From: Ancylobacter mangrovi
Lineage (GTDB): Bacteria; Pseudomonadota; Alphaproteobacteria; Rhizobiales; Xanthobacteraceae
Direction: 5' to 3'
DNA: 64,000 bases
Assembly (NCBI RefSeq): GCF_024752355.1
Contig: NZ_JANTHZ010000005.1
Span: 62,001-126,000 of the forward strand
Of the stretch, positions 18,946-42,610 are shown piece after piece. The notes under the pieces are model-generated. The model ran no database searches. It saw only the letters and a list, made by a program, of their open reading frames with translations, and had not been told where the DNA came from. Position 1 is the stretch's first letter. Every line of letters begins with the position of its first letter. Made by a program: the position numbers and the translations under genes.

Positions 18946-19668
18946 TCAGCCGGTCAGGTTCTCGCCGCCGTTGAGGTGCATCACAGTGCCGGTCATGTAG
19001 GCCGCGGCGTCAGAGGCGAGGAAGGCGGCGATCTTCGCCACCTCGTCGGTGCGCCCGTGCCGGCGCAGCGGGATGCCCGCCAGCCGCTCCGGGCTGGTCT
19101 CCAGTAGCGCGGTCTCGATACCGCCGGGCGCAATCGCGTTGACCGTGATGCCCCAGGGCGCGAATTCCAGTGCCCAGGACTTGGTGAGGCCGAGGATGGC
19201 CGCCTTGGACGCCGCGTAGATCGACGAATCCGCGTGGCCGAACACGCCCCAGTTCGACGAGGTGTTGACGATCCGCCCGGCGCGGCGCGCCTTCATGCCG
19301 GCGATCACGCCGCGCGTCGCGGCGATGGTGCCGCCGACATTCACCCGGAAGACGAGATCGACGAAATCGGGCGTCACGGCGTCCATCGGGCCGTCGCCGG
19401 CGATGCCGACATTGTTCACCAGCACGTCGATCGCCCGCGCCGCGTCGAGCGCGCGCACGCCTTCCTCGAAGCGGTCGGCTTCGCACACGTCGCAGGCGAA
19501 GGGCGCAGCCTCCGGCACCCGCGCCAGCGTGCCGGCGAGCGCCTCGTGCGAGATGTCGTGCGCGATCACGTGGCAGCCGAGCGCGGCGAAATGGACCGCA
19601 TGCGCCTGGCCGATGCCCGACCCCGCGCCGGTGATCAGGACCGTCCGGCCGGCGAGGTCCGCGCTCAT
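18946..19668 (-). CDS. Short-chain dehydrogenase/reductase
   Basis: The 240-residue classical SDR is an NAD(P)-dependent oxidoreductase. Cofactor motif is VLITGAGSGIGQAHAVHFAA (residues about 9-28). The acidic residue in VIAHDIS after beta-2 suggests NAD rather than NADP. NNVGIAG, catalytic Ser in NTSSNWG, Tyr-x3-Lys in IYAASKAA, and the C-terminal MHLNGGEN are all present. The ATG overlaps the stop of the upstream M20 hydrolase gene by 4 bases, so it is the last gene of the hyuA-hyuB-M20-SDR operon. It probably oxidises or reduces a hydroxyl or keto group on the pathway intermediate. The substrate is not predictable. Confidence 0.9.
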   Translation of the reverse strand: MSADLAGRTVLITGAGSGIGQAHAVHFAALGCHVIAHDISHEALAGTLARVPEAAPFACDVCEADRFEEGVRALDAARAIDVLVNNVGIAGDGPMDAVTPDFVDLVFRVNVGGTIAATRGVIAGMKARRAGRIVNTSSNWGVFGHADSSIYAASKAAILGLTKSWALEFAPWGITVNAIAPGGIETALLETSPERLAGIPLRRHGRTDEVAKIAAFLASDAAAYMTGTVMHLNGGENLTG

Positions 19669-20933
19669 GGCCGCGCCGCGAGATAGTCGAAGGCGGTCAG
19701 CACGTAGATCCGGCCGAGCGCCACCAGTTCGTCGATGGCGACGTGCTCGTCGGCCGCGCCCATGTTCACCGGCGTCAGCCCGCACACCACGGTCGGCACG
19801 CCCGCCGCCCGGTAATGGCGCGCGTCCGACGCGCCGACCCGCATGTTCAGCACCGGGTCGATGTCGAGCACCTTGCGCACGTTGCGCGCCAGAAGGCCGA
19901 TGACCGGATGCTCCGGATCGGTCCAGCTCGCCTCGTAGCGCCGCGTGATCTCGACCGAGACGCCGAGCTCGGCGGCGATGCGCAGGATCTCGGCCTCGAT
20001 CGTGGCGACGCTGATTCCGACCGGGATCCGAACGTCCGCCGTCGCCTCGGCATGGTCGGCGACGAGGTTCGACAGCCGCCCACCGCTCATGGTGCCGAAG
20101 GTCACCGTCACCTTGCCGAGCACCTCACTCTCGCCGGCGCCGGAAAGTTCCTCGGAGACCGGGCCCGCCGCCGCGATCGCCTCGACCACCTTCTGCGGCG
20201 CCGCCACCGGCAGGTCGCGAATGGCGCGCAGCGCGGCGATGGCGTCGATCAGCTTCTCCAGCGCGCTCTCGCCCTTGTGCACATGGGCGGCATGGGCGGA
20301 GCGGCCGCGGGCCGACAGCTTCATCCAGATCATGCCCTTCTCGCCGAAGCGCAGCACGCGCGGCGAGCCGGCATCGGCGCTGATCATCACGTCGCCGCCG
20401 GCATGGGGCACCGTGTCGAGCAGCAGGCGCGAGCCAAGCACGCCCATGGTCTCCTCGTCGCCGGCGAAGGTGGCGACGAGTTCGCCCGCGAACTGCTCGC
20501 GGATCGGCGCGAGGCGGCGCAGCGCGAACAGGATCGCCGCGATGCCCGCCTTCATGTCCGAGACGCCGAGGCCGTAGAGCTTGCCCTCACGCGCCTCCCC
20601 GGTCGGGTCGGCGGTCCATTCGTCCGCGTTGCCGAGCGGGAACGTGTCCATATGGCCGTTGAAGACGAGACGCGGGCCGGGCCTGCCGCCCTTCAGCCGC
20701 AGCACGAGGTTCATCACGTGCTCGGCGCCGGGATGGCGCTCGATCTCGATCCCCGGCAGGTCGGCGATCAGGGCGACGATCTCCTCGGTCATCGCCCGCG
20801 TGTCGCCCGGCGGTGTCCCGCTCGGGCACGCGACGAGACGCTTCGTTGCCTCGACCAGCCAGTCGGCATCCGCGCCGGCGGCCTCGTCCGGCAGATCGTT
20901 CGTCGTCGCGTCGCTCGTCATCGTGTCGCCCAT
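19665..20933 (-). CDS. M20-family metallohydrolase (ArgE/DapE-like)
   Basis: This 422-residue zinc-dependent amidase or deacylase belongs to the ArgE/DapE/carboxypeptidase G2 family. Metal-binding motifs are LVFNGHMDTFPLG, LGVSDMKAGIAA and the catalytic Glu pair in ATFAGDEETMGVLG. A dimerisation insert covers about residues 210-330 (SARGRSAHAAHVHKGESALE), and the last ligand is in ADEHVAID. It follows hyuB by only 2 bases and overlaps the SDR gene downstream. In hydantoin-type pathways a member of this family hydrolyses the N-carbamoyl or N-acyl amino acid released by the ring-opening enzyme. That is the most likely job here but remains an inference. Confidence 0.9.
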   Translation of the reverse strand: MGDTMTSDATTNDLPDEAAGADADWLVEATKRLVACPSGTPPGDTRAMTEEIVALIADLPGIEIERHPGAEHVMNLVLRLKGGRPGPRLVFNGHMDTFPLGNADEWTADPTGEAREGKLYGLGVSDMKAGIAAILFALRRLAPIREQFAGELVATFAGDEETMGVLGSRLLLDTVPHAGGDVMISADAGSPRVLRFGEKGMIWMKLSARGRSAHAAHVHKGESALEKLIDAIAALRAIRDLPVAAPQKVVEAIAAAGPVSEELSGAGESEVLGKVTVTFGTMSGGRLSNLVADHAEATADVRIPVGISVATIEAEILRIAAELGVSVEITRRYEASWTDPEHPVIGLLARNVRKVLDIDPVLNMRVGASDARHYRAAGVPTVVCGLTPVNMGAADEHVAIDELVALGRIYVLTAFDYLAARP

Positions 20934-20935
20934 TC

Positions 20936-22714
20936 TCAGCCCGCCCTCAGCGCGGCGGTCGCCGCCTCGTCGACCACGCCGTCCGGCGTCAGCGCCACCC
21001 GATAGACGTCGCGCGCCCGGGCGGGGCTGATCCAGCCCTCCTCGACGTCGCGCGCTACGCGATGGGGATCGCGCGTCAGCGCGTCGCCATAGCCGCCCCC
21101 GCCATTGGTCATGGAGACCACACGCTGGTCGCGCCGCACATGGACGTGCTCGGAGGTCGTCATCTCGGTGATCTCGCCGGCGTCGGATTCGAGATATTGC
21201 CGCGCCGGACGGGCGTCGCCGCCGCCGCGCGTGCCGAGCGAGGGGTTCACCGTGCCGTCGGAGCAGAAGCCGAGCTCGAAATCGCAGTCGATCGGGCGGA
21301 ACGCCGTCACGATGCCCGGCGCCCCGCGATGCGCCCCGGCGCCCTCGCTGTCGGTCAGGATCTTGCGGGTCTCGATCATCATCGGGTGCAGCATCTCGTC
21401 GATCTCGACGCTGTCGTAGAACGGCATGCCGGCATTGCCCATGCAGAACAGCGAGAGCCAGCCATCTTCCACCGGCGTGCCCGGCCCGCCGCCGGCGGCG
21501 AGGATCACCTCGTTGACGAAGGCATGGCCGTTGCGCGGGTCATGGCCCGAGATCACGCCCGCCGCGGGCGGCAGCGCCGCGCCGCCTTCCGCCATGCCGA
21601 CCTTCGGATCGATCGCCGCCATGGCGAGCTGCACCGCGTTGGAGACGCGGTCGCCCAGATTGGTGGTGGCGACCGAAGTGGAATGGGGATGGCGGGGAAT
21701 GCCGACGCAGCAATTCTCGCGCAGCTTCACCTCGATCCGGCGCAGGCTCCCCGCGTTCGGCGTCACCGGCCTGGGCAGGCTGTTCAGCACCCCGACCAGC
21801 GCCGCCGTGCGGGCGCAGGCATGAGAGAGGTTCACCCCCACCGGCAGGCAGTCGATATTGTCGGTCAGGTCGACCGTGATCATGCCGTTCGCCGCATCCA
21901 CCGTGACGTCGGCATTGGCGGGAATGCCGCCCGCCGGCGTGCCGGGCAGCGGGTCGTGCGTGCAGGTGCCGCGCGCCGAGCCGGAGGCGATGGTCGAGAT
22001 GATCTCCACCATCTGGCGCTCGGTCATGTCGAACCACTGGCGGGCATGCTCGGAGAGCGCCTCCCAGCCCAGCTCCGCGCCCATGCGCATGATCTCGCGC
22101 TCGCCGATCCGCGCCGCGCCCAGCATGGCGAGGTAGTCGCCGCGCCACTGCTCGGGCACGCGGATGCGCATCATGCACATGTTGATGATGTCGCGATTAT
22201 CCGTGTAGTCCGACTGCACCTTCACCGCCGGGAAGATCAGCGCGCCTTCCTCATACACGTCGCGGGCGTTGCCCATATAGGTCGTGGGCAGCGAGTTGCC
22301 ACAGTCCGCCTGGTGCGCCTTCGCCACCACGGTGAAGCGGTGCACGTCGTCATCGTCGAACACCGGCACCAGTATGGTGTGGTCGGCCGCGTGCGAATTG
22401 CCGTGATAGGGCGAGTTGTGCAGGAAGGCGTCGCCGCGCTTGAGGTCGGGATGGATGTCGAGCATCGCCCGCGCCATCAGGTCGGCGCCCCCGATCACGT
22501 GGATCGGGTAGCTGTCGGCGGCGGTCAGCAGCTCGCAATCGGCGGTCACCAGCGCGCAGGAGAAGTCGCGCGCGGTGTTGATGACGCCCGAGCGCGCCGT
22601 GCGCAGCAGCGTGTTGGCCATCTTGCGCGTCACGCCGTCGAAGCGCTTCTGCATGATGGCGAGCTTGACGCCGCTGGCGAGCGGGGCCGTGTGGGTCTGG
22701 GTCTGGACGTTCAT
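20936..22714 (-). CDS. hyuB: Hydantoinase B / oxoprolinase subunit B
   Basis: The 592-residue protein is the B subunit of the ATP-dependent N-methylhydantoinase, 5-oxoprolinase and acetone carboxylase superfamily. Typical segments are TRKMANTLLRTARSGVINTA near the N-terminus, AFLHNSPYHGNSHAADHTI with metal-binding His/Asp, and CVGIPRHPHSTSVATTNLGD. With HyuA it hydrolyses the C-N bond of a cyclic imide or amide at the cost of ATP. It starts 12 bases after the hyuA stop behind AGGAGA. The end of the gene nearly touches the M20 hydrolase. Hydantoin, N-methylhydantoin, oxoproline, caprolactam and related lactams are all substrates in this family, so specificity is open. Confidence 0.93.
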   Translation of the reverse strand: MNVQTQTHTAPLASGVKLAIMQKRFDGVTRKMANTLLRTARSGVINTARDFSCALVTADCELLTAADSYPIHVIGGADLMARAMLDIHPDLKRGDAFLHNSPYHGNSHAADHTILVPVFDDDDVHRFTVVAKAHQADCGNSLPTTYMGNARDVYEEGALIFPAVKVQSDYTDNRDIINMCMMRIRVPEQWRGDYLAMLGAARIGEREIMRMGAELGWEALSEHARQWFDMTERQMVEIISTIASGSARGTCTHDPLPGTPAGGIPANADVTVDAANGMITVDLTDNIDCLPVGVNLSHACARTAALVGVLNSLPRPVTPNAGSLRRIEVKLRENCCVGIPRHPHSTSVATTNLGDRVSNAVQLAMAAIDPKVGMAEGGAALPPAAGVISGHDPRNGHAFVNEVILAAGGGPGTPVEDGWLSLFCMGNAGMPFYDSVEIDEMLHPMMIETRKILTDSEGAGAHRGAPGIVTAFRPIDCDFELGFCSDGTVNPSLGTRGGGDARPARQYLESDAGEITEMTTSEHVHVRRDQRVVSMTNGGGGYGDALTRDPHRVARDVEEGWISPARARDVYRVALTPDGVVDEAATAALRAG

Positions 22715-22726: not shown

Positions 22727-24790
22727 TCAGGCTGCGCTGCGCACGACGAGGTGCCCGCCGGGCCGGCGCACGGCCCGCGCCCCCGGGTTCACGACGATGG
22801 TGGTGAAGTTGCTGTCGACGATGGCCGGGCCGGCGATCTCCTCGCCCTCCGCCATGTGCTCGAGCCGGTAGGCCGGCGCCTCGGTGAGGCCGGTCTCGCG
22901 GAAATACATCGGGCGCCGGGTGGAATCGGCCACCGCCCCCTCCTGCGCCAGCCGGATCGAGGTCGGGTCCGACAACCGGCAGCGGGCGAGTGCGCGCCAG
23001 CTCATGATCTCGATCGCGTCGCCATCGTCGCGGAACGAGAACAGCTCGGTGTGGCGGGCGTGGAAATCGGCGATCAGCGCCGCCACGTCCGCTTCGCGGG
23101 CGAAGCCGTCGCCGCGCAGCGGCACGTCGATCTCCCACACCTGGCTCGGATAGCGGCCCTCGATGGAGAAATCGATGCGCTTGTCGCGCGCGTGCGGCCC
23201 GGCCTTGGCGAAGAAGCCCTGCGCCTGCGCGGCCAGCTCGGCGATGATGGCATTGGCCTTCTCGCGGTCGAAGGCGGTCGTCTTCATGAAGGCGGTGCGG
23301 GCGAACTCGGTGGTGAGCTCCGACATCATCGCCCCCGCCGCGCTCAGCGCCGCGCCGACATCGGGGAAGATCACCGTGTCGCAGCGCAGCCGCCGCGCGA
23401 TCAGCACCGCGTTGATGCCCGCCGCGCCGCCGCCGCCGATCATCGCCGTCTCCTCCGGGTCGATGCCCTGCTTGACGGTGATGTCCTCGATTGCGTGCAC
23501 CATGCTCTCGGTCGCGAGGTCGAGCACCGACAGCGCCGCCTCCTCCACGCCGATGCCGAGCGGCCCGGCGACCTCGCGCGCGATGGCCTCGCGCGCCGCC
23601 TCGCGCCCGAGGCTCATCTGCCCGCCGAGGAAGAAGGCCGGGTCGATATAGCCCAGCACCACGGCCGCGTCGGTGACGGTGGGCCTGGTGCCGCCGCGCC
23701 CGTAGCACACCGGCCCCGGCGTCGAGCCGGCGCTCTCCGGCCCGACATGCAGCAGCCCGGCCGCGTCGACGCGGGCGATGCTGCCACCGCCGGCGCCGAC
23801 ACTCTTCACATCGACCGAGGGGAAGCCGGTGAGGTTGCCCTGATAGATCGGGCCGAGCCAGGTCTCGCGGGTCCAGGGCAAGGCGCCCTCGCGCACCAGC
23901 GAGACGTCGTAGGTGGTGCCGCCGGCATCGGTGACGATGGCCGTGCGCGCGCCTTCCGCCTCGGCGAAGAACCGCCCGGCGACCGGCGCCATGGCCGGCC
24001 CGGAATTGAGCGCCAGGATCGGGCGCTCGGCAAGGTCGGCGACGTCGACCAGCCCGCCCTGCGAGGTCACCGCGAAGATCTGGCCCTTCAGCCCGCGCCC
24101 TTCCAGCCGCGCCTTCAGCGTGCGCAGATAGTCGCTCATGATCGGCTTCAGCGAGGCGTCGATGGCGCAGGACGAGGTGCGCCGATACTCGCGCACGGTC
24201 GGGTTCAGCCGATGCGAGAGCGTGTAGGGTACGCCCGGCAGGTGCTCCTCCAGCAGCTCGGCCACCCGCTCCTCATGCGCCGGATTGACGATCGACCAGA
24301 TGAGCGCGACCGCCACCGCCTCCACCTTGTTCGCCTTCAGCTCGGCGATGATGGCGAGCACCGCCGCCTCGTCGAGCGGCTTGTGGACGCGCCCGTCGGC
24401 CCAGATGCGCCCGGGCACCTCGAAGGTCAGCGCGCGCGGGATATAGGGCGCGGGATAGGGAACGCGGTAGTTGAACGGGTCGGTGCGCCCGCCCTCGCGG
24501 ATCAGCAAGATGTCCGGGTGACCCTCGGTCGCCAGCAGCGCGGTGCGCGCGGCGTTGCCGGTGATCACCGCGTTGATGGCGCGGGTGGTCGAGTGGAACA
24601 GGATCTCGGTCTCGCCGAGAAGCGCCTCGACCCCGACGCCGCGGGCCTGCGCGGCGAGCTCGATCGCGCCGAGAATGCCGCCGATCGGATCGGGATAGGT
24701 GGTCGGCGACTTGAACATCGTCGCCGCCCTGCCGGGCTCGTCCACCATCAGATCGGTGAAGGTCCCGCCCACGTCGATCGACATTCGCAT
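22727..24790 (-). CDS. hyuA: Hydantoinase A / oxoprolinase subunit A (ATP-binding)
   Basis: The 687-residue ATPase subunit activates the cyclic amide by phosphorylation. It has the actin-like phosphate loop MSIDVGGTFTDLMVDEPG at the very N-terminus, the second loop VTDAGGTTYDVSLV, and the family signature AGGGSIARVDAAGLLHVGPE followed by STPGPVCYGRGG. The ATG at 24790 is preferred over the ATG at 24829 because the phosphate-binding strand starts right after it and GGGAG lies upstream. It is the first gene of the operon hyuA-hyuB-M20-SDR. A TTGCAT/ATGCAA operator-like site lies 25-50 bases upstream, in the gap shared with the divergent XRE-cupin regulator. Confidence 0.93.
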   Translation of the reverse strand: MRMSIDVGGTFTDLMVDEPGRAATMFKSPTTYPDPIGGILGAIELAAQARGVGVEALLGETEILFHSTTRAINAVITGNAARTALLATEGHPDILLIREGGRTDPFNYRVPYPAPYIPRALTFEVPGRIWADGRVHKPLDEAAVLAIIAELKANKVEAVAVALIWSIVNPAHEERVAELLEEHLPGVPYTLSHRLNPTVREYRRTSSCAIDASLKPIMSDYLRTLKARLEGRGLKGQIFAVTSQGGLVDVADLAERPILALNSGPAMAPVAGRFFAEAEGARTAIVTDAGGTTYDVSLVREGALPWTRETWLGPIYQGNLTGFPSVDVKSVGAGGGSIARVDAAGLLHVGPESAGSTPGPVCYGRGGTRPTVTDAAVVLGYIDPAFFLGGQMSLGREAAREAIAREVAGPLGIGVEEAALSVLDLATESMVHAIEDITVKQGIDPEETAMIGGGGAAGINAVLIARRLRCDTVIFPDVGAALSAAGAMMSELTTEFARTAFMKTTAFDREKANAIIAELAAQAQGFFAKAGPHARDKRIDFSIEGRYPSQVWEIDVPLRGDGFAREADVAALIADFHARHTELFSFRDDGDAIEIMSWRALARCRLSDPTSIRLAQEGAVADSTRRPMYFRETGLTEAPAYRLEHMAEGEEIAGPAIVDSNFTTIVVNPGARAVRRPGGHLVVRSAA

Positions 24791-24814
24791 TTTGCCCAAC
24801 TCCCATACGGTGAT

Positions 24815-24840
24815 ATTCATCTTATGCAAGAGAGTTGCAT
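24815..24840. promoter_or_regulatory. Site 1 of the TTGCAT/ATGCAA operator family
   Basis: ATGCAA (24824) and TTGCAT (24835) face each other across 5 bases; the palindrome extends to TATGCAA-N5-TTGCATA. A degenerate third half-site ATTCAT lies 3 bases before the first. It sits between divergent hyuA and the XRE-cupin gene, in a position to control both. Related sites are at 28487, 33352 and 36777. Confidence 0.65.
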
Positions 24841-24994
24841 ATAAGACAAGTTAATTTGCTTTAACGCCAGTGATCCGCCCTAACTTGCGTGGTGCACAAG
24901 CGAAAAGGGTTCTGCTAGACAGGCAAATAAGCCAGCCGGGAATCGGAAGCGGGCAGCATGCCGACGGCTGGCGGCAGAGGGAACGAACGCGCCC

Positions 24995-25585
24995 ATGGCC
25001 AATTCGGATGGCGAGAAGCTCGACGAGGGACTGGCGGCGGTCGGGCCGCGCGTGCGCTATCTGCGCCGGCTGCACCGGCTGCGCCTCAAGGACCTCGCCG
25101 CGCTCGCCGGCTGCTCGGAAAGCCTGCTCTCGCGCATCGAGAACGCGCTGGTCGTTCCCTCGCTGAGCACGCTGCACCGGCTCTCCAAGGCCCTCAACGT
25201 CAATGTCGCGGCGCTGATCGACCCCAAGGAAGAGCAGATCTGCACCATCTACGGGCCCAATGACCGGCCGCGCTACACCCGCGCCGCCGAGGAAGGCGAC
25301 GGCAGCACGGCGGAGATCCTCACCCCTTTCTCCGAGCATCGCCAGCTCGAGGGGCTGCTGCTGGAAATGCCGGCCCACGGGCCGATGTGCGGCCCGTTCC
25401 AGCACGCGGGCGAGGAGGTCGGCTATGTCCTCGCCGGCGAGCTCGAGCTCCATGTGGAGGGCGAGCAGTACCGCGTGCCGACCGGCTACAGCTTCTTCTA
25501 CCAGTCGGACCGCATCCACAGCTACCGCGCCTCCGGCGACGAGAATTGCCGCGTCATCTGGATCAACACCCCGCCGACCTTCTGA
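24995..25585 (+). CDS. XRE-family regulator with C-terminal cupin
   Basis: The 196-residue protein has a helix-turn-helix of the Cro/CI type at about residues 14-70 (LKDLAALAGCSESLLSRIEN) and a small cupin at about 110-190 (FQHAGEEVGYVLAGELELHV, GYSFFYQSDRIHSY). In this architecture, known from PuuR and many catabolic regulators, the cupin binds the inducer. The gene is divergent from hyuA, and the TTGCAT/ATGCAA palindrome lies in the shared gap. It is therefore the best candidate for the protein that reads all four such sites in the cluster; this is inferred from proximity. It converges on the fused ABC transporter gene with 57 bases between stops. Confidence 0.9.
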   Translation: MANSDGEKLDEGLAAVGPRVRYLRRLHRLRLKDLAALAGCSESLLSRIENALVVPSLSTLHRLSKALNVNVAALIDPKEEQICTIYGPNDRPRYTRAAEEGDGSTAEILTPFSEHRQLEGLLLEMPAHGPMCGPFQHAGEEVGYVLAGELELHVEGEQYRVPTGYSFFYQSDRIHSYRASGDENCRVIWINTPPTF

Positions 25586-25642
25586 AGGCCGCCGCCGGGC
25601 CGGCCCTCCCCGTCGGTTCGGCGCCCGTCAGGCCGGCACCGC

Positions 25643-27436: not shown

Positions 27437-27485
27437 CGGGAAGTCTCCGTTTCAGGGGCCGGCCGGGGGCGGCCCGAGACGAGAT

Positions 27486-27515
27486 CATGCCGGAACGGGG
27501 TCCCGTCCCGGCATG
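27486..27515. repeat. Long hairpin between binding protein and transporter genes
   Basis: CATGCCGGAACGGG and CCCGTCCCGGCATG can pair over 14 bases with one mismatch around a very tight centre. The hairpin lies in the 118-base gap between the binding-protein stop and the fused permease-ATPase start. Such intercistronic stem-loops commonly protect the upstream message and keep binding protein in excess over the membrane complex. No T run follows, so full termination is unlikely. Confidence 0.6.
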
Positions 27516-27554
27516 CTCGAAGGGTCGTCAGGGCGGATTATGCCGCCCGTGCCG

Positions 27555-28418: not shown

Positions 28419-28486
28419 TTCCGTCTCCTGGAAGTGCGGCCACGGCCCGAACCGCCGGCCTGTTTTTGGCAATTGATTTCAGCAAT

Positions 28487-29657: not shown

Positions 29658-29670
29658 TGGTTCCTCGAAC

Positions 29671-33306: not shown

Positions 33307-33351
33307 CTTGCGTTCTCCACTCCCGTAAACGCCTTGCAGCTAACACCGTCA

Positions 33352-33377
33352 TTGCATAACGTGCAAGTCACTTGCAT
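33352..33377. promoter_or_regulatory. Site 3 of the TTGCAT/ATGCAA operator family
   Basis: Three half-sites occur in a row: TTGCAT (33352), GTGCAA (33361) and TTGCAT (33372), separated by 3 and 5 bases. The inner pair forms the perfect dyad TGCAAGT-C-ACTTGCA. It sits between divergent HpaB copy 2 and the PuuE-like hydrolase and could control both. Confidence 0.7.
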
Positions 33378-33424
33378 GTATCGCTCGCACGCCTCCTTCC
33401 GCCCCTCCGAACCATGAGAGCCTC

Positions 33425-35274: not shown

Positions 35275-36713
35275 TAGCTCGCCAGCAGCTCGTCGAGCGG
35301 GGCCAGCACGCCGTCCCAGTCGGTCTCGCGCCCGACATGCTCGCGCACCACGAAGGCCGGCCCCATGTAGAAGCGCTCATACTGCGCATGGCGGCCGGCG
35401 AAGTCGGTGCCGAGCAGGTCCCAGGCGAGCTTGAACAGCTTCATCCGTTCGCGCGCGCTCCAGCCATTGCCGGCCCAGTTGGCCTCGAACACGCGCGCCG
35501 TCTCCTCGGCGTCGAGCACGCCGATATCGGCCGGCATCTGCAGCACGCTGCCGCCCATCAGCTCACGCAGGCGGGAGCAGATCTTGTCGTAGTTCTGCGT
35601 CGCCCAGTAGATCGAGGCGTACATGGCGCGGCGGTCGAAGCAGGTGAAGCCGCCCGGCAGCGTCTCGTAGCCCTGGATCTGCCCGTTGATCAGCGTCGCG
35701 ATCAGCGCGTCCTGCGCCGAGAGGTGGTTCAGCGCGTCGCGCACTGCCGGCACCTTGTCGGTGCCCATGCATTCGGTGATGCGCCGCGCCAGCGCCAGCA
35801 TCAGCCGCGTCTTGGCCCGGTAGCGCACGCTCGACTGGTGGTTGGAGAGCGTGTGGGCGGGGGTGTCGAAATAGATCGAACGCGACCACGCCACGTCGTC
35901 GAGGGTGAAGACCCGCTCCCACGGCACCTTCACGTTCTCGCACACCACCACGCAGTCGGATTCGTCGAAATGGGTGGTGAGCGGGTTCTCGAACGTCCCC
36001 TCCCCGTGCGCCGCATAGGGCTTGCGCGACCACAGGCTGAGCCCCGGCGCGTTGACCGGCAGCGCGCAGGTGATGGAGGCAGCCTTCTGCTCCGGCGCCA
36101 GCGGCAGGATGTTGCCGATCCACAGCTCGTGGGCGAAGGCGGCGCCGGTCGCCAGCATCTTCATGCCGTTGACGATAACGCCACCCGAATAGCTCCCCGT
36201 CACCTGCAGCGTCGGCACGGCCTCGCTGTCGCGGCCGAACTTCGCCGGGTCGCGCGTGCCCTGCGGCGGGGCCACGGCATGGGCGAGATAGAGGTCGTTG
36301 CGGCGGCAATGCTCGTAATAGGCGGTGACGTTGGCGGAGAAGTCATGCCCGTTGCGCGCGAAGCGGTCCGGCTGCATCGCCGCGCCGGTGATGTAGCCGC
36401 CGACGAAGTCGGGCGAGCGGCCGAGCAGGCCGCAGGAAAGCTCGGCGATGACCGCGCTGCACCGGCTGCGCTTCTCGAGGTCCTCGCGGCTGCGCGGCAT
36501 CAGATAATAGCCGGCGAAGCTTTCTCCGCCCTCTTCGCTCACCAGATGCGGGCGGTAGCGCGGATCGCGGCGCGCGTCCCAGATGCGGGCGAAGGAGCGG
36601 GCGGTGGGCGCGAAACCGGGATGGGTGGTGACGTCTTCGACACGCTGCGAGCCGACATGGATCACCCGCCCGTCGCGCAGGCTCTCGAGATATTGCGCCC
36701 CGGTCATCAGCAT
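35196..36713 (-). CDS. HpaB-family FADH2-dependent monooxygenase, copy 3 (divergent)
   Basis: The 505-residue protein has the same fold marks as copies 1 and 2 but is clearly more distant: SCGLLGRSPDFVGGYITGAA, THFDESDCVVVCENVKVPWE, GTDFAGRHAQYERFYMG. It should likewise need reduced FAD from a partner. AGGAG lies 7 bases before the ATG. The last 26 codons run over the end of the convergent epimerase gene; the terminal 15-20 residues (Ser/Ala-rich) look like an extension past the family's usual end. Upstream, the gap shared with the M20D amidohydrolase contains a TTGCAT-aaa-ATGCAA site. It may act on a different ring or step than copies 1 and 2. Confidence 0.88.
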   Translation of the reverse strand: MLMTGAQYLESLRDGRVIHVGSQRVEDVTTHPGFAPTARSFARIWDARRDPRYRPHLVSEEGGESFAGYYLMPRSREDLEKRSRCSAVIAELSCGLLGRSPDFVGGYITGAAMQPDRFARNGHDFSANVTAYYEHCRRNDLYLAHAVAPPQGTRDPAKFGRDSEAVPTLQVTGSYSGGVIVNGMKMLATGAAFAHELWIGNILPLAPEQKAASITCALPVNAPGLSLWSRKPYAAHGEGTFENPLTTHFDESDCVVVCENVKVPWERVFTLDDVAWSRSIYFDTPAHTLSNHQSSVRYRAKTRLMLALARRITECMGTDKVPAVRDALNHLSAQDALIATLINGQIQGYETLPGGFTCFDRRAMYASIYWATQNYDKICSRLRELMGGSVLQMPADIGVLDAEETARVFEANWAGNGWSARERMKLFKLAWDLLGTDFAGRHAQYERFYMGPAFVVREHVGRETDWDGVLAPLDELLASYQAGEEPATIGPAISPSAAAMSTAGS

Positions 36714-36776
36714 CGGCGGTCTCCTGAACGTCTCTCAAGGTGGCGCGCACGAAAGGTACATGTTCGCGAAAGAGAC

Positions 36777-36791
36777 TTGCATAAAATGCAA
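36777..36791. promoter_or_regulatory. Site 4 of the TTGCAT/ATGCAA operator family
   Basis: TTGCAT and ATGCAA lie back to back across AAA, the same outward arrangement and 3-base spacing as the left half of site 3. It is located between divergent HpaB copy 3 and the M20D amidohydrolase gene. A perfect 10-base palindrome GCCAATTGGC is also present at 36833-36842. Confidence 0.6.
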
Positions 36792-36892
36792 ACACGTTCA
36801 CAGATGACCCGAGACGGGCGCCGATTGCAAATGCCAATTGGCGTCCCCATCCCTTGCGCAGCCCACCCGCGCCTTCGCCAGGAGCCTTCCGC

Positions 36893-38059
36893 ATGCCGCT
36901 CGTCGACGAGATCGCCGGTTTCCACCCCGAGATGAAGGCATGGCGCCGCGAGCTGCACAGCCATCCCGAGACCGCCTTCGAGGAGAACTGGACCGCGGCC
37001 TTCATCGCCGACAAGCTCACCGCCTTCGGCCTGCCCTTCGAGAGCGGCATCGCCCGCACCGGCATCGTCGCGACGCTGAAGGGCCGGCTTGGCGAGGGTC
37101 CGGCGATCGGCCTGCGCGCGGACATGGATGCGCTCGACATCACCGAGATGACCAACCTGCCCTACCGCTCGACCATTTCCGGCAAGATGCACGCCTGCGG
37201 CCATGACGGGCACATGACCATGCTGCTCGGCGCCGCGCGCCACCTCGCCGCCAACCCCGACTTCGCCGGCACGGTGCATTTCATCTTCCAGCCGGCCGAG
37301 GAGATGAACGGCGGCGGGAAGGTGATGGTCGAGGAAGGCCTGTTCGAGCGCTTCCCGATGGAGCGCGTGTTCGGCCTGCACAACTGGCCGGGGCAGGCCT
37401 TCGGCAGCTTCTCGGGCAAGCCGGGGCCGATGCTCGCCTCCTCCGACCTGTTCGAGATCACGGTGAAGGGCCGCGCCGCCCACGCCGCCATGCCCCATCT
37501 CGGCATCGACCCCGTCACCGTTGCCGGCGAGCTGATCGGAGCGCTGCAGACCATCGCCAGCCGCACCGTCGACCCGCTCGAGGCGGCCGTGGTCAGCATC
37601 ACCCAGGTCCATGGCGGCGACGCGTGGAACATCATCCCCGACGAGGTGGTGCTGCGCGGCACGGTCCGCACCTTCCAGCCCGCCGTGCGCGATGCCGTCG
37701 AGGCGCGCGTGAAGGCGATCGCCACCGGCGTCGCCGGGCTCCACGGCGCCACCGCCTCCGTCTGGTACGACCGGCGCTATCCGCCCACCGTCAACACCGC
37801 GGCCGAGGTCGCGCTCGCGCTGGACGCGGCCGGTGCGGCGGCGGATCAGGACCACGTCATCCCCGATCCCGCCTCCTCCATGGCCTCGGAGGATTTCGCC
37901 TACATGCTGGAGAAGGCGCCCGGCGCCTATCTCTGGCTCGGCAGCGGGCCGGGGGCCGCCCTCCACAGCTCGGGCTACGATTTCAACGACGAGCTTCTTC
38001 CCCTCGGCGCCAGCTACTGGGTAAGGCTGGTGGAACGTATCCTCGCGCCCACGGCGTGA
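36893..38059 (+). CDS. M20D-family amidohydrolase (hippurate hydrolase-like)
   Basis: The 388-residue metallohydrolase is of the aminoacylase/hippuricase/IAA-amino-acid hydrolase type, splitting N-acyl amino acids. Family marks are WRRELHSHPETAFEE, GLRADMDALDITEM, GKMHACGHDGHMTMLL (Cys and His ligands) and HFIFQPAEEMNGGGKVMVEE (catalytic Glu pair). The dimerisation domain spans about 185-300 (HAAMPHLGIDPVTVAGELIG). AGGAG precedes the chosen ATG by about 8 bases. It runs into the gamma-glutamyltransferase gene after 25 bases, forming one unit driven from the site 4 region. It is the second M20-type hydrolase of the cluster and could remove an acyl or carbamoyl group. Confidence 0.92.
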   Translation: MPLVDEIAGFHPEMKAWRRELHSHPETAFEENWTAAFIADKLTAFGLPFESGIARTGIVATLKGRLGEGPAIGLRADMDALDITEMTNLPYRSTISGKMHACGHDGHMTMLLGAARHLAANPDFAGTVHFIFQPAEEMNGGGKVMVEEGLFERFPMERVFGLHNWPGQAFGSFSGKPGPMLASSDLFEITVKGRAAHAAMPHLGIDPVTVAGELIGALQTIASRTVDPLEAAVVSITQVHGGDAWNIIPDEVVLRGTVRTFQPAVRDAVEARVKAIATGVAGLHGATASVWYDRRYPPTVNTAAEVALALDAAGAAADQDHVIPDPASSMASEDFAYMLEKAPGAYLWLGSGPGAALHSSGYDFNDELLPLGASYWVRLVERILAPTA

Positions 38060-38084
38060 GTCCCGATCAGGTGAGGCAACGCCG

Positions 38085-39677
38085 ATGAGAGATTTCGAAA
38101 CCCCCGGCCGCTCGCTCGTGATGGCGACCAACGGCATGGCCGCGACCTCGCACCCGCTGTCGAGCCTGGTGGCGCTCAACGTGCTCCAGTCCGGCGGCAA
38201 CGCGATGGACGCGGCGATCGCCGCCTGCGCCGTGCAGGGCGTCGTCGAGCCGGGCTCGACCGGGCTCGGCGGCGACTGCTTCGTGCTCTACGCCCCCGGC
38301 GGCACCGACGACATCGTCGCCTATAACGGCTCGGGCCGCGCTCCCGCCGCCGCCAATACCGACTATTACGCCGACCACGGCATAACGGCGCTGGAGCGCC
38401 AGTCCCCGCATGCCGTCACCGTGCCGGGGGCGGTGGAAGCCTGGGCGCGGCTGTCGCAGGACCACGGCACGCGTCCGCTCGGCGATCTGCTCCAGCCTGC
38501 CATCGGGCTGGCGCGCGGGGGCTATGCCGTCGCGCCACGCGTCGCGCTCGACTGGCGCGAGCAGGCCGGCCTGCTGGCCGGGGACGCGAACACCGCGCGC
38601 GTGTTCCTGCCCGAGGGACACAGCCCCCATGCGGGCACGCTGCACCACCAGCCCGAGCTCGCCGCCACGCTGGAGCGCATCGCCGCCGAGGGGCCGGACG
38701 GCTTCTATCGCGGCCCCGTCGCCGAGGACATCGTCGCCTATCTGCAGAGCCTCGGCGGCCTCCACACACTGGAGGACTTCGCCACCGCCCGGGGCGCCTA
38801 TGTGACGCCGATCTCCACCCGCTTCCGCGACCTGCGGGTGCATGAATGCCCGCCCAACGGGCAGGGCATCATCGCGCTGATGCTGCTCAACATCCTGTCG
38901 CACGGATCGACCCGCCCGGACCCACTCTCGGCCGAGCGGGTGCATTTCGAGATGGAGGCGGCACGCCTTGCCTATTCGGTGCGCGACGCCGTGCTGTGCG
39001 ACCCCGACCATATCGAAGTGCCGATGCGCGAGTTGCTCTCGAGCTCGCTGGCGAGCCAGCTCGCCGGCATGATCCGGCCCGACGCCCGCCTCGCCGAGCT
39101 GCCCGCGATCGACCTGCCGAGCCACAACGACACGGTCTACATCGCGGTGGTCGACAAGGACCGCAACGTCGCGAGCTTCATCAACTCGATCTTCAATCCC
39201 TTCGGCAGCGGCCTCGTCGCCCCGAGCTCGGGCGTGCTGCTGAACAACCGGGCGCAGGGCTTCTCGCTGAAGCCCGGCCACCCCAACGCCATCGCCGGCG
39301 GCAAGCGGCCGCTGCATACCATCATTCCCGGCCTGACAACGCGCGACGGGCGCGTCGAGCACTGCTTCGGCGTGATGGGCGGGCAGTACCAGGCGCTCGG
39401 CCAGGCCTATTTCCTCGCCCGCGTGCTCGATTACGGGCTCGACATGCAGAGCGCGATCGACATGCCGCGCGCCTGCCCGCTGTTCGGCACCGACGCGCTG
39501 GAGGTCGAGGGCAGCATGCCGGACGCGGTGCGGCGCGACCTCGCCGCGCTCGGCCACCGCATCGTGCGCCCCTCGCGCCCCATCGGCGGGGCACAGGCGA
39601 TCCGCATCGACTGGGCCAACGGCGTGCTCACCGGCGCCTCCGATCCGCGCAAGGACGGCTGCGCGCTCGGCTACTGA
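38085..39677 (+). CDS. ggt: Gamma-glutamyltransferase-family protein (Ntn hydrolase)
   Basis: The 530-residue precursor should cleave itself before Thr350 in LPSHNDTVYIAVVD into large and small subunits, the threonine then being the nucleophile. The N-terminal pattern SGGNAMDAAIAACAVQGVVE with EPGSTGLGGDCF, and AFSGSGL-like INSIFNPFGSGLVAPSSG and GLLNNR-like VLLNNRAQGF fit the family. No signal peptide is visible, so unlike E. coli GGT it seems cytoplasmic. Some cytosolic members hydrolyse gamma-glutamyl amides in amine catabolism or act as cephalosporin-type acylases. It is the last gene of the M20D-GGT unit and is followed by a hairpin. Confidence 0.88.
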   Translation: MRDFETPGRSLVMATNGMAATSHPLSSLVALNVLQSGGNAMDAAIAACAVQGVVEPGSTGLGGDCFVLYAPGGTDDIVAYNGSGRAPAAANTDYYADHGITALERQSPHAVTVPGAVEAWARLSQDHGTRPLGDLLQPAIGLARGGYAVAPRVALDWREQAGLLAGDANTARVFLPEGHSPHAGTLHHQPELAATLERIAAEGPDGFYRGPVAEDIVAYLQSLGGLHTLEDFATARGAYVTPISTRFRDLRVHECPPNGQGIIALMLLNILSHGSTRPDPLSAERVHFEMEAARLAYSVRDAVLCDPDHIEVPMRELLSSSLASQLAGMIRPDARLAELPAIDLPSHNDTVYIAVVDKDRNVASFINSIFNPFGSGLVAPSSGVLLNNRAQGFSLKPGHPNAIAGGKRPLHTIIPGLTTRDGRVEHCFGVMGGQYQALGQAYFLARVLDYGLDMQSAIDMPRACPLFGTDALEVEGSMPDAVRRDLAALGHRIVRPSRPIGGAQAIRIDWANGVLTGASDPRKDGCALGY

Positions 39678-39683
39678 AGCCAA

Positions 39684-39704
39684 GTGCCGGCAAGAGGCCG
39701 GCAC
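39684..39704 (+). terminator. Hairpin after the gamma-glutamyltransferase gene
   Basis: GTGCCGGC-aagag-GCCGGCAC is a perfect 8-base stem with a 5-base loop, starting 6 bases after the stop codon. No T run follows, so it may be a weak or Rho-assisted terminator. The remaining gap to 39912 shows no gene and only a single TTGCAT half-site. Confidence 0.5.
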
Positions 39705-39912
39705 CCTGCCCAAGCACGCTGCCCACGAATCGGGCGCCCGCGTGCAGGAGCAGGCGGGAGGACGGTCGCGAGGACTGGTCCGCCCACGGTAACCCGCGCT
39801 TGGCGGCACTCTTGCATGCTGCTGCGCCTCCCGTGCCCCCTGCGCAGCGCCCCTTGCGCACTGCCCTGCGCAGAGGGCCATACTGAGCGTCCCCTTGCCG
39901 GAGGTCACCGTC

Positions 39913-40998
39913 ATGATCCGCCTGTTCAGCCGTCTCGCCACCCGTTTCAGATCGAGCCCCGCGCGCCAGCGCACCGGCGGCACCGCGCATCTGGCGGGCG
40001 CGACCAGCCTCGCGGCCATGATCGCCCTCGCCGCGGTCACCGGCGCCCATGCCGACACGCCGGTGAAGTTCACCCTCGACTGGGTGTTCCAGGGCCCGAC
40101 CTCACCCTTCCTCGTGGCGCTGGAGAAGGGCTACTACAAGGATGAGGGGCTCGACGTGACGATGGACCCCGGCCAGGGCTCGGCCGGCGCGGTGCAGCGC
40201 GTGGCGTCCGGCGCCTACGACATCGGCTTCGCCGACGTGAACTCGCTCATCGAATACAACGCCAAGAACCCGGGAAAAGAGATCCTGTGCGTGTTCATGG
40301 CCTATGACTTCCCGCCCTTCGGCGTCTACGCGCTGAAGACGTCCGGCATCAAGACGCCCGCCGACCTCGCCGGCAAGAAGCTCGGCGCGCCGGTGTTCGA
40401 CGCCTCGTTCCGCCTCTTCCCGGCCTTCGCCAAGAAGGTCGGCATCGACCCGAAGAGCGTCGAGAGCGTCAACCTCACGCCCCAGCTTCGCGAGCAGTCG
40501 CTGGTCCAGGGCACGGTCGACTTCATCTCCGGGCACTACTTCTCCTCGGTCCTCGACCTCGAGGCGCGCGGCGTGAAACTCGACGACCTCGTCGTCTTCA
40601 CCTACAGCGACGCCGGCATGGACGTGTACGGCAACGGCATCATCGTCTCGCCGCAGATGGCCGAGAAGCCGGAAGTGGTGAAGGGCTTCCTGCGGGCCAC
40701 GATCAAGGCGTGGAAGGAGGTCGCGGCCAATCCCGAGATCGGCGTCGCCGCCGCCAAGAACCGCGACCCGCTGATCGACGAGGCGCTGGAATTGCGGCGG
40801 CTCAACATGTCGCTGCAGATGAACGTGCTGACGCCCTATGTGAAGGAGAACGGCATGGGCGACGTAGACCCCGAGCGTTTCGCCCGCTCGATCAAGGACG
40901 TCGCCGACGCCTTCGGCCTGCCCGACGCGCCGGCGCCGGAGAAGGTGTTCACCGACTACTACCTCCCGCCCAAGGCCGACCGGATGGTCGCCCCCTGA
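39913..40998 (+). CDS. NMT1/THI5-like ABC substrate-binding protein
   Basis: The 361-residue periplasmic protein starts at the ATG at 39913 behind GGAGGT. It has a long signal region ending near GAHADTPVKF. The mature part opens with KFTLDWVFQGPTSPFLVALE and GYYKDEGLDVTM, the hallmark of the NMT1/THI5/SsuA family, followed by GAYDIGFADVNSLIEY. Members bind pyrimidines such as the HMP precursors of thiamine, riboflavin, sulfonates or aromatic acids. The ATPase and permease genes follow directly. Position at the end of the catabolic supercluster suggests import of a ring compound. It could also be independent, since no full TTGCAT/ATGCAA site precedes it. Confidence 0.9.
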   Translation: MIRLFSRLATRFRSSPARQRTGGTAHLAGATSLAAMIALAAVTGAHADTPVKFTLDWVFQGPTSPFLVALEKGYYKDEGLDVTMDPGQGSAGAVQRVASGAYDIGFADVNSLIEYNAKNPGKEILCVFMAYDFPPFGVYALKTSGIKTPADLAGKKLGAPVFDASFRLFPAFAKKVGIDPKSVESVNLTPQLREQSLVQGTVDFISGHYFSSVLDLEARGVKLDDLVVFTYSDAGMDVYGNGIIVSPQMAEKPEVVKGFLRATIKAWKEVAANPEIGVAAAKNRDPLIDEALELRRLNMSLQMNVLTPYVKENGMGDVDPERFARSIKDVADAFGLPDAPAPEKVFTDYYLPPKADRMVAP

Positions 40999-41042
40999 CG
41001 GCCCGCCGTCCGAATGCCCCTTCGCCTGACACCGAAGCCTGC

Positions 41043-41837
41043 ATGCCCTCACCTCCCCTCGTCGAACTGAAGAATGTCAGCCTCGCCTATGGCGAGGGCA
41101 GCGAGCGCATGCTGGCGCTCGGCGACGCCACGATGAGCATCGACGATGGCGAGTTCGTCGCCGTCGTCGGCCCCTCGGGCTGCGGCAAGTCCACACTGAT
41201 GAAGCTGGTCACCGGCCTCCTGCCGCCCACCGGCGGCGAGGTGAGCGTGCGCGGCCAGCCCGTCACGGGCCCGATCAAGGGCGTCGGCATGGCGTTCCAG
41301 AACGCCACCCTCATGCCCTGGCGCACCACCCGCGACAACATCATGCTGCCGCTCGAGGTGGTGGAGCCGCACAAGCGGCGCCTGCGCGCCAACCGCGCCG
41401 AATACATCGCCCGCGCCGAGGCCCTGCTCGCCTCGGTCGGACTCGGCGGCTTCGGCGACAAGTTCCCCTGGCAGCTCTCCGGCGGCATGCAGCAGCGCTC
41501 CAATGTCTGCCGCGCGCTGATCCACGAGCCGCAGATCCTGATGCTCGACGAGCCCTTCGGCGCGCTCGACGCCTTCACCCGCGAGGAGCTGTGGGGGATC
41601 ATGCAGGCGCTGTGGCTGGAGCGGCGCTTCACCGCCGTGCTGGTGACGCACGACTTGCGTGAGGCGGTGTACCTCGCCGACACGGTCTATGTGATGAGCC
41701 GCCGGCCGGGCCGGATCGTGAAGGTGCGCACGGTGGACCTGCCCCGCCCGCGCACGCTGGAGACCACCTTCGAGCCCGCCTTCGTCGATATCGTGCACGA
41801 GCTGCGCGAACGCATCCAGCAGGAGCACGCCGAATGA
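41043..41837 (+). CDS. ABC transporter ATPase, SsuB/TauB-like
   Basis: The 264-residue nucleotide-binding subunit energises the NMT1/THI5-type importer. Walker A VVGPSGCGKSTLMK, Q-loop MAFQNATLMPWRT, signature WQLSGGMQQRSNVCRALIHE (Asn replaces the usual Val of QRVxxARA), Walker B ILMLDEPFGALD and switch His in VLVTHDLREAV are all visible. The MPWRT sequence after the Q-loop is typical of the nitrate/taurine/sulfonate branch. The ATG at 41043 is 45 bases after the binding-protein stop, and the gene overlaps the permease by ATGA, so the three form one operon. Confidence 0.93.
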   Translation: MPSPPLVELKNVSLAYGEGSERMLALGDATMSIDDGEFVAVVGPSGCGKSTLMKLVTGLLPPTGGEVSVRGQPVTGPIKGVGMAFQNATLMPWRTTRDNIMLPLEVVEPHKRRLRANRAEYIARAEALLASVGLGGFGDKFPWQLSGGMQQRSNVCRALIHEPQILMLDEPFGALDAFTREELWGIMQALWLERRFTAVLVTHDLREAVYLADTVYVMSRRPGRIVKVRTVDLPRPRTLETTFEPAFVDIVHELRERIQQEHAE

Positions 41838-42610
41838 GCGCCCTGCAGCGCCGCGCCATCCGCCTCGCCATGCCGTGGCTGACCCTCCTCGCCCTGCTGG
41901 TGCTGTGGGAGGTGGCCTGCATCGTGTTCCATATTCCCGAGATCGTGGCGCCGCGCCCCACCCGCGTCTTCGAGGTGGTCATCCAGCGCTGGGACCTGCT
42001 GCTGCGCTTCTGCCTCGAGACGCTGTGGACGACGCTGATCGGCTTCTTCCTCGCCATCGGCTTCGGCCTGCTGCTGGGCCTCGCCATCGGCGCCTCGCCC
42101 TTCATCTATTCCGGGCTCTACCCGCTGCTGATCGCCTTCAACGCCATCCCCAAGGTCGCCATCGTGCCGATCCTGATGATCTGGGTTGGCATCGGCGCGC
42201 TGCCGGCGATCATCACCGCCTTCGTCATCTCCTTCTTCCCGATCGTGGTGAACGTCGCCACCGGCCTCGCCACCATCGAGCCGGAGATGCGCGACCTGAT
42301 GCGCTCGCTCGGCGCCAGCAATCGGGAGATCCTGGTCAAGGTCGGCATTCCGCGCGCCATGCCGTACCTGTTCGCCAGCCTCAAGGTGGCGGCGACGCTG
42401 GCCTTCGTCGGCTCGGTGCTGTCGGAGACGGTCGGCGGCAATCGCGGCATCGGCTTCCTCATGCTCTCGGCGAGCGCGCGCAACGATTCCGCGACCACCT
42501 TTGCCGGGCTGTTCGCCATCGCGGTGATGGGCGTGGGCGTCTATGCCGCCTGCGCGCTGATCGAGCGGCGCATGACCCGCTGGGCCTTCCGCGGCGAGCT
42601 GGTGCGGTAG
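41834..42610 (+). CDS. ABC transporter permease, SsuC/TauC-like
   Basis: The 258-residue inner-membrane protein has six predicted helices. The ATPase-contacting EAA loop is LMRSLGASNREILVKVGIPR. Conserved FNAIPKVAIVPILMIWVGIG in the middle is characteristic of the sulfonate, nitrate and pyrimidine-precursor permeases. It is translationally coupled to the ATPase gene by an ATGA overlap and closes the importer operon. No gene follows for 203 bases, where the heme-uptake operon begins. The importer is complete (binding protein, ATPase, permease), so it should be functional as encoded. Confidence 0.92.
   Translation: MSALQRRAIRLAMPWLTLLALLVLWEVACIVFHIPEIVAPRPTRVFEVVIQRWDLLLRFCLETLWTTLIGFFLAIGFGLLLGLAIGASPFIYSGLYPLLIAFNAIPKVAIVPILMIWVGIGALPAIITAFVISFFPIVVNVATGLATIEPEMRDLMRSLGASNREILVKVGIPRAMPYLFASLKVAATLAFVGSVLSETVGGNRGIGFLMLSASARNDSATTFAGLFAIAVMGVGVYAACALIERRMTRWAFRGELVR

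Follow-up and report, generated by a model that had tools for sequence, protein, structure and literature searches.

Whether neighbouring genes of one bacterial locus serve one catabolic pathway or only lie side by side is the question raised by positions 18946-42610 of the 64-kb stretch of Ancylobacter mangrovi DNA analysed here as a whole (the window; contig NZ_JANTHZ010000005.1, positions 62,001 to 126,000). These positions carry an ATP-dependent hydantoinase/oxoprolinase (HyuAB), a PuuE-like hydrolase and three HpaB-type monooxygenases. Nineteen genes were modelled by third-position GC models together with Pfam and NCBIfam scans; open reading frames (ORFs) in wrong frames were partly included in the family scans and gave no match. 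An original prediction had joined all of these genes in one pathway of import, ring hydroxylation, cyclic-amide opening and deacylation. Its inventory (HyuAB, the PuuE-like hydrolase, two M20 enzymes, three HpaBs, a gamma-glutamyltransferase (GGT), importers and regulators) was recovered with names that were about right, and its idea of one catabolic system survived for a core of the genes, not for all three HpaBs. The catabolic locus is real and conserved, and it is probably co-regulated. Known enzyme superfamilies are brought together in a combination of which no description was found in the open-access literature searched, and by their sequences the PuuE-like clade and the HpaBs fall outside the families that gave them their names.

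The core, the remaining genes of the HyuAB run and three palindromic sites are as follows.

18946-19785, minus strand: SDR oxidoreductase, last gene of the HyuAB run (adh_short_C2, E 1.2e-48; true start probably near 19668)
19665-20933, minus strand: M20a, an ArgE/DapE-type amidohydrolase (Peptidase_M20, E 9e-26; DapE-ArgE model 169.4 vs 217.6 bits)
20936-22714, minus strand: HyuB, hydantoinase/oxoprolinase beta subunit (PF02538, Hydantoinase_B, E 1.3e-118)
22727-24829, minus strand: HyuA, ATP-dependent hydantoinase/oxoprolinase alpha subunit (PF01968, Hydantoinase_A, E 4.3e-74; true start probably near 24790)
24825-24839, no strand: palindrome, candidate operator in the HyuA-XRE promoter region, TGCAAGAGAGTTGCA
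24995-25585, plus strand: XRE-cupin regulator, PuuR-like (HTH_3 and Cupin_2)
25643-27436, minus strand: fused ABC permease-ATPase of the polar amino-acid type (BPD_transp_1 and ABC_tran)
27555-28472, minus strand: SBP_bac_3 binding protein, SBP3 (PF00497, E 9e-25; true start probably near 28418)
28488-28503, no strand: palindrome, candidate operator upstream of SBP3, TGCAAGTCAACTTGCA
31858-33306, minus strand: HpaB2 monooxygenase (HpaB_N, PF11794, E 3.2e-80; HpaB, E 9.6e-53; R-H-Y)
33362-33376, no strand: palindrome, candidate operator between HpaB2 and the PuuE-like gene, TGCAAGTCACTTGCA
33425-34321, plus strand: PuuE-like NodB-fold hydrolase of clade A (PuuE model 379.8 bits; fold matches 3s6o and 3cl6)
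34261-35274, plus strand: NAD-dependent epimerase/dehydratase family protein (PF01370, E 1.8e-51)

The PuuE-like protein was searched against 199 genomes of the order, and relatives at E 1e-40 or better were found in 125. Six genomes, its own included, showed at least 61% identity, and the next one showed 52%. The core was found again in Methylobrevis albus (G095), Prosthecomicrobium hirschii (G106) and a third genome (G070), which belong to two other families, with identities of 78-80% for HyuB, 69-70% for HyuA, 66-68% for XRE-cupin, 65-66% for the permease-ATPase, 51-54% for SBP3, 50-56% for the epimerase, 71-74% for the PuuE-like protein and 65-68% for HpaB2. In all three the epimerase gene adjoins the PuuE-like gene, and each carries one HpaB. 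P. hirschii additionally carries an AcoABC-like E1/E1/lipoyl-hydrolase set, a GMC oxidoreductase and a class III aminotransferase by family scan, with homologues in the other two. The synteny search that had been called for thus showed that the orthologues do not always occur apart, and no independent regulation was indicated within the core by sequence.

Parts of the core were also found together elsewhere. A genome of another order (G276) holds HyuAB (56-61%), SBP3 (47%), the permease-ATPase (61%) and HpaB3 (60%) in one place, and G144 holds a PuuE-like gene, an XRE-cupin relative, HpaB3 (47-49%), a GGT (53%) and a more distant HyuAB. Two further loci, in a Ramlibacter metagenome-assembled genome (L080) and in Ancylobacter sonchi (L081), were reached through HpaB and contain PuuE-like, XRE-cupin, HpaB and flavin reductase relatives. 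The Ancylobacter locus adds a molybdenum hydroxylase (the large and FAD subunits were recognised by family scan, and the third from its position and its likeness to counterparts), and the Ramlibacter locus carries a 2-oxoglutarate-Fe(II) (2OG-Fe(II)) oxygenase domain. Two combinations were found outside clade A: in Rhizobium ACO-34A, an HpaB with proteins of the PuuE type (47%) and of the 3qbu type (549 bits against 3qbu), and in G099, an HpaB with genes for a PuuE-type protein (46%), an amidase and a racemase/isomerase relative. As an observation on G276 (L199, C37), two tandem clade-A PuuE-like genes lie near its HyuAB and HpaB3, and a neighbouring gene resembles, by a motif in its sequence, a dienelactone hydrolase.

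The promoter regions of HyuA, SBP3 and HpaB2-PuuE-like have the palindrome TGCAA-N5/6-TTGCA in common. Five exact copies were counted in the whole genome, three of them in the cluster, compared with one for the reversed-pattern control. Three sites with at most one mismatch were counted in the window. Exact copies of the HyuA site stand at the orthologous place in G095, G106 and G070, and of the HpaB2-PuuE-like site in G106 and G070, so that these two promoters account for 2/4 exact copies in G106 and 2/4 in G070, and the HyuA promoter for 1/3 in G095 (reversed-pattern controls: 3, 2 and 2, respectively). Only half-sites were present at the HpaB3-M20b promoter. G144 and G017 each have a single site that matches with one mismatch or none, away from these promoters, and none of the 15 exact copies in the G144 genome falls in its cluster stretch. 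A promoter consensus scan of 24700-39950 gave no site, with 1.2 expected. The XRE-cupin protein travels with the core and is therefore its likely regulator and the candidate binder of the palindrome. Taken together, synteny in the relatives and a palindrome common to its promoters make the cluster more than a chance grouping; recurrence in other genomes and a rare palindrome shared by three promoters support the view that the core is one catabolic system and not a random pile, and it looks like one regulon.

The PuuE-like protein at the centre of this core is probably not an allantoinase. Its score of 379.8 bits lies under the TIGR03212 cut-off of 424.6, and it groups in a clade of 18 sequences from 17 genomes or loci (clade A; support 100/99 in a tree of 52 sequences, and again 100/99 for 8/36 sequences in a smaller tree). 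Met160, Glu188 and Gly284 are common to all 18 members, and position 185 is Leu or Phe (window numbering; Leu in the window). The 27 PuuE copies used for comparison have Tyr160 in 25/27, Tyr185 in 27/27, Asp188 in 21/27 (Glu in 6) and Arg284 in 27/27, and the usual residues are kept in copies beside allantoicase or molybdenum hydroxylase genes (L206, L208 and L209). These four positions may be allantoinase-defining. In the AlphaFold model (built from five sequences; mean predicted local distance difference test 74, and 64 around residues 181-190) they lie in or shortly after barrel strands, which would place them on the active-site face. Compared with PuuE allantoinase (3cl6), the window protein has the same fold, with 48% identity in the fold alignment, and differs in the missed cut-off and in these residues at the barrel strands. 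No allantoicase match was found in nine clade-A stretches (L197-L205).

Allantoin degradation was considered as the role of the protein and rejected in view of a second PuuE-type copy elsewhere in the genome (C4:173649), which falls in the other clade and shares 72% identity with a copy beside allantoicase in G133. No allantoicase match was found in 20 kb around C4:173649 either, so that copy is itself no more than a candidate allantoinase. In G133 itself (L167, C49:55133-60217), the PuuE-type gene and allantoicase are divergent from an HpaB-family gene (29% to HpaB1), which is followed by RidA-like and Rieske-type oxygenase genes.

Clade-A genes often have a flavin monooxygenase nearby. All matches of at least 59% identity were examined (14 loci besides the window), together with L080 and L081. 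A flavin monooxygenase was present in the examined stretch of 11/17 clade-A loci, being an HpaB in eight (window, G095, G070, G106, G144, L080, L081 and G276) and a PHBH-type enzyme in three (G017, G476 and G823). In six other-clade loci, which are part of the next-ranked matches, the counts were 0/6 for flavin monooxygenase, 3/6 for molybdenum hydroxylase and 1/6 for allantoicase. A Fisher comparison of 11/17 with 0/6 overstates the difference, because the window and the loci found through HpaB are counted; without them the figure is 8/14. Counted by eye with fragments included, at least 9/93 HpaB_N places have a PuuE-type gene no more than 5 kb away (3/9 being this window), in at least 7/61 HpaB-bearing genomes, compared with a roughly estimated expectation of about 0.3; outside the own genome at least 6/89 places have one. 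The PHBH-type monooxygenase (62-64% to that of G017) was observed with a clade-A PuuE-like gene and an NMT1-type importer in G017 (L044/L045), L202 and L205.

Only HpaB2 among the three HpaBs stands at a promoter with the palindrome. The other two stand in the following groups of genes.

28638-29657, minus strand: AspA/AstE-type deacylase, AspA-like (PF24827, AstE_AspA, E 5.1e-25; DoeB model 63.4 vs 402.7 bits)
29671-31182, minus strand: HpaB1 monooxygenase (HpaB_N, PF11794, E 1.8e-86; HpaB, E 1e-55; R-H-Y)
31331-31861, plus strand: MarR regulator, divergent from HpaB1 (MarR_2, E 8.3e-12)
35196-36713, minus strand: HpaB3 monooxygenase (HpaB_N, PF11794, E 1.6e-69; HpaB, E 8.8e-38; R-F-H)
36854-38059, plus strand: M20b, an IAA-amino-acid-hydrolase/DoeB2-like amidohydrolase (TIGR01891, 354.8 over the cut-off of 153.75; DoeB2 314.2 vs 550)
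38085-39677, plus strand: GGT-fold Ntn amidohydrolase (PF01019, E 7.1e-139)
39895-40998, plus strand: NMT1/SsuA-type binding protein (PF09084, E 5.6e-43)
40710-41837, plus strand: ABC ATPase (ABC_tran, E 1.8e-30, ORF residues 138-283; true start probably near 41050)
41834-42610, plus strand: ABC permease (BPD_transp_1, E 9.3e-26)

The placing of all three HpaBs in one pathway was not upheld, with HpaB1 beside MarR and no palindrome, half-sites at HpaB3, and one HpaB in each relative. Both groups, HpaB1-AspA-MarR and HpaB3/M20b/GGT/NMT1, have the appearance of added modules.

Of the four HpaB places in the genome, the cluster contains three; at the fourth (G000:C12:931252-933173) a flavin reductase lies directly downstream, and Glu and Ser occupy the places of the triad Tyr and His. 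Both domains exceed the Pfam cut-offs in all three HpaBs of the cluster, as in the HpaB/TftD superfamily, and the best scores of 308.7, 269.6 and 259.5 bits fall below the TIGR02309/TIGR02310 cut-offs (480.2/885.2). The catalytic triad of EcHpaB is described as Arg113-Tyr117-His155, with Tyr117 and His155 contacting the substrate (PMC10537072). The window HpaBs share with 4-hydroxyphenylacetate 3-monooxygenase the two-domain architecture and the catalytic Arg. They differ in that Tyr117 and His155 are exchanged for His and Tyr in HpaB1 and HpaB2, and Tyr is replaced by Phe in HpaB3; the HpaB3 relative of G276 has Phe and His, and that of G144 has Tyr and Asn. The R-H-Y exchange was found in 80/80 loci from the HpaB2 scan, which were picked by similarity to HpaB2 and are not independent. 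A PuuE-like gene was present at 4/80 of them (E 1e-12), many being shorter than the cluster. Classical 4-hydroxyphenylacetate catabolism was rejected on the altered triad and the lack of a LigB-family member in the genome. HpaB1/2 relatives in Caballeronia sp. NK8 (L158), Thioclava (L159), L082 and others were seen to share an operon layout in which HpaB is accompanied by a flavin reductase, a cupin protein, an amidase, a DUF2848 protein, a MarR or GntR regulator and an importer of the branched-chain type.

HyuA has intact ATP motifs (DVGGT19, DAGGT301 and GSTPGP368), and HyuB has the metal tetrad D50-H108-D111-H134 aligned with CapB, as in the Hyu/Cap superfamily. CapB is described with an Asp-His-Asp-His metal site and vicinal Cys410-Cys411 (PMC8453981). 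The CapA and CapB models of the CapAB caprolactamase were the best NCBIfam matches, with 556.8 and 257.5 bits vs equivalog cut-offs of 1000; Gly-Asn stands at the aligned place of the vicinal Cys pair, and the gene neighbourhoods are unlike. Caprolactamase was rejected as the identity of HyuAB on the cut-offs and the replaced Cys pair. HyuB relatives in Cupriavidus (L160, 56%) and Phyllobacterium (L161, 52%) lie with HyuA near genes for a 3-keto-5-aminohexanoate cleavage protein and an SDR, and no HpaB was listed within 20 kb of them; these neighbourhoods are perhaps another lactam route.

The reading preferred here, to which we give about an even chance of being right, is that the conserved and probably co-regulated core catabolises a small, polar ring compound that contains nitrogen. 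The SBP3 importer, possibly with the NMT1 importer, would take up a polar N-heterocycle. HpaB2, with reduced flavin from an unlinked reductase, would convert the ring to a lactam or imide by hydroxylation. Opening might fall to two enzymes: the clade-A PuuE-like one, acting without ATP on the reactive bond of a cyclic imide or hydantoin-like compound, and HyuAB, spending ATP on an unreactive lactam. SDR and epimerase-type enzymes could adjust the redox state, and the M20, AspA-like and GGT-fold enzymes could remove amide or acyl groups. XRE-cupin would control HyuAB-M20a-SDR, the importer and HpaB2/PuuE-like-epimerase through TGCAA-N5/6-TTGCA, and HpaB1-AspA-MarR and HpaB3/M20b-GGT-NMT1 would be side modules added to the core. 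The substrate class, the pairing of regulator and operator and the order of steps are what we infer. Ring oxidation followed by cyclic-amide opening seems the most economical logic. Related loci add a molybdenum hydroxylase and a PHBH-type monooxygenase, and two loci outside clade A contribute an amidase, a racemase relative and a member of the HxnM family. The import, hydroxylation and opening logic of the original prediction gained from these N-heterocycle-type enzymes and from the unity of the core, and lost the unity of the three HpaBs.

The nearest described logic that was found is the hxn nicotinate pathway of Aspergillus nidulans, in which monooxygenases hydroxylate the ring, an NAD-dependent dehydrogenase yields a cyclic imide, the NodB-fold imidase HxnM opens it and an amidase frees the nitrogen (PMC9304392, PMC8478523). 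The 2OG-Fe(II) oxygenase domain of the Ramlibacter relative has a parallel in HxnY of that pathway. The differences are clear: HxnM is described as closest to 3qbu, and the protein of the cluster, with 346 bits against 3cl6 and 57 against 3qbu, is of the PuuE type and not an HxnM-type imidase; HxnV is described as like 3-hydroxybenzoate hydroxylase and phenol 2-monooxygenase, unlike HpaB; and hxn is fungal, with no ATP-dependent HyuAB named in the sections consulted. On a wider scale, we tentatively suggest, with less than even confidence, that the clade-A PuuE-like proteins may form a new family of ring-opening hydrolases that work with exchangeable flavin monooxygenases (the swapped-residue HpaB1/2, HpaB3 or the PHBH type) and, in the core, with HyuAB, as an undescribed bacterial route of N-heteroaromatic hydroxylation and hydrolytic opening, a counterpart of fungal hxn logic.

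Other known systems were compared and rejected. Auxin degradation (iad), raised by the co-occurrence of MarR, HpaB and a lactam hydrolase, shares MarR, an importer and attack on an N-heterocycle with the cluster, and was ruled out because it starts with the Rieske-type IadCDE and 'hydantoin' has no occurrence in the main texts of its descriptions, where HpaB and 4-hydroxyphenylacetate had none in the portions searched (PMC9613470, PMC10374108, PMC12633357). Pyridine, 4-hydroxypyridine and indole-carboxylate systems were set aside since HpaB and 4-hydroxyphenylacetate were unmentioned in the descriptions compared. Ectoine utilisation (doe/eut) showed family overlap only (DoeB 63.4/402.7, DoeB2 314.2/550 and EhuA 303.9/345.4 bits).

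Several observations weigh against the preferred reading. The M20, GGT and SDR proteins near the core in G095, G106 and G070 are just 31-36% identical to those of the window, and for this reason they may be independent recruits. HyuAB relatives were found without a listed HpaB or PuuE-like gene nearby, and also elsewhere in genomes that carry the core. At six of the 17 clade-A loci the examined stretch lacks a flavin monooxygenase: three share a polA-related neighbour (named from the L198 copy), two share an unannotated gene run and one has a second PuuE-type gene. No flavin reductase was found in the window; the genome has 13, and the sole one on this contig lies past the window end (C18:155025). 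As for the palindrome, it was spotted in these promoters first and counted genome-wide afterwards, so a binomial probability only describes its concentration. The relatives have many sites that match with one mismatch or none (G095 5, G070 5 and G106 6, in about 60 kb each), which makes the one-mismatch copy at the HpaB2-PuuE-like place of G095 weak on its own. Even when one mismatch is allowed, the palindrome is missing from the stretches of Ramlibacter, Ancylobacter and G276, and the HpaB1-MarR promoter lacks it.

The last of these observations also bears on the explanation that independent neighbouring modules, each for a different compound, lie here together, namely the XRE regulon, a MarR unit (HpaB1-AspA) and an HpaB3/M20b-GGT unit with the NMT1 importer. 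We regard this as possible, if rather unlikely. An NMT1-type importer accompanies the PuuE-like and PHBH-type genes in G017, G476 and G823, with M20b (45%) in G017, and HpaB1/2 relatives often belong to the reductase-HpaB-cupin-amidase-DUF2848 operon elsewhere; both speak for it. However, HpaB2, HpaB3 and, in Ancylobacter, an HpaB1-like gene each neighbour a clade-A PuuE-like gene in some genome, a pattern suggestive of a single chemistry whose parts can be exchanged. A ureide or purine-like pathway, in which the PuuE-like enzyme opens an allantoin analogue (methylated, for example) derived from a flavin-hydroxylated urate-like compound, is improbable in our judgement. Kinship with PuuE, the xanthine dehydrogenase-related molybdenum hydroxylase beside the PuuE-like gene in Ancylobacter and the weak HpxO likeness of the PHBH-type partner (102 vs 500 bits) would agree with it, but clade A lacks the residues kept in PuuE copies beside allantoicase or molybdenum hydroxylase, none of the own genome's molybdenum hydroxylase copies lies in the window, and L197-L205 gave no allantoicase match.

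Catabolism of a phenolic amide or conjugate, with M20b, AspA-like and GGT-fold enzymes freeing a phenol that the HpaBs hydroxylate classically, appears very improbable. It draws on the HpaB family itself, on the likeness of M20b to IAA-amino-acid hydrolases (PDB matches YxeP and ILR1-like 2) and on a weak match of MarR to the HpaR model (36 vs 121 bits), yet the HpaBs lie under the equivalog cut-offs with an altered triad, and HyuAB and the PuuE-like protein would be left unexplained. No ring-cleavage family was found among the 19 scanned genes and no LigB-type dioxygenase in the genome, other dioxygenase families not being searched. The GGT-fold protein passes TIGR00066 (369.2 vs a cut-off of 357.85 bits) and has Thr350 at the nucleophile position. 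Its gamma-glutamyl pocket, which we take to be Arg114, Asp433 and Ser462-Ser463 in E. coli numbering, is replaced by Ser, Gly and His-Thr, its best PDB match is 2nlz, named 'cephalosporin acylase', and a gamma-glutamyl reading is doubtful.

Read in this way, the core is a candidate regulon for which both an operator and a regulator can be proposed; it is also present in the named isolates P. hirschii and M. albus and is directly testable. The analysis sets a clade that is probably not allantoinase apart from many PuuE-type proteins, and flags an HpaB subfamily in which Tyr and His, the residues that contact the substrate, have changed places. If the reading is true, N-heterocycles would be opened hydrolytically and partly at the expense of ATP, a chemistry that would bear on how N-heterocycles of natural or man-made origin are broken down.

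From left to right, the cluster runs from SDR, M20a, HyuB and HyuA (minus) through XRE-cupin (plus) to the permease-ATPase, SBP3, AspA-like and HpaB1 (minus), MarR (plus) and HpaB2 (minus), then the PuuE-like and epimerase genes (plus), HpaB3 (minus) and M20b, GGT-fold, NMT1 binding protein, ATPase and permease (plus), with four divergent promoter regions (HyuA-XRE, HpaB1-MarR, HpaB2-PuuE-like and HpaB3-M20b). The ORF starts of HyuA, SDR, SBP3, the epimerase and the NMT1-importer ATPase are probably over-long. A KefC-type antiporter forms the left flank. On the right, a heme-type ABC importer and a TonB heme receptor (42760-48520) follow directly 3' of the cluster, and a similar heme-type importer lies about 15 kb from the PuuE-like gene of G017.

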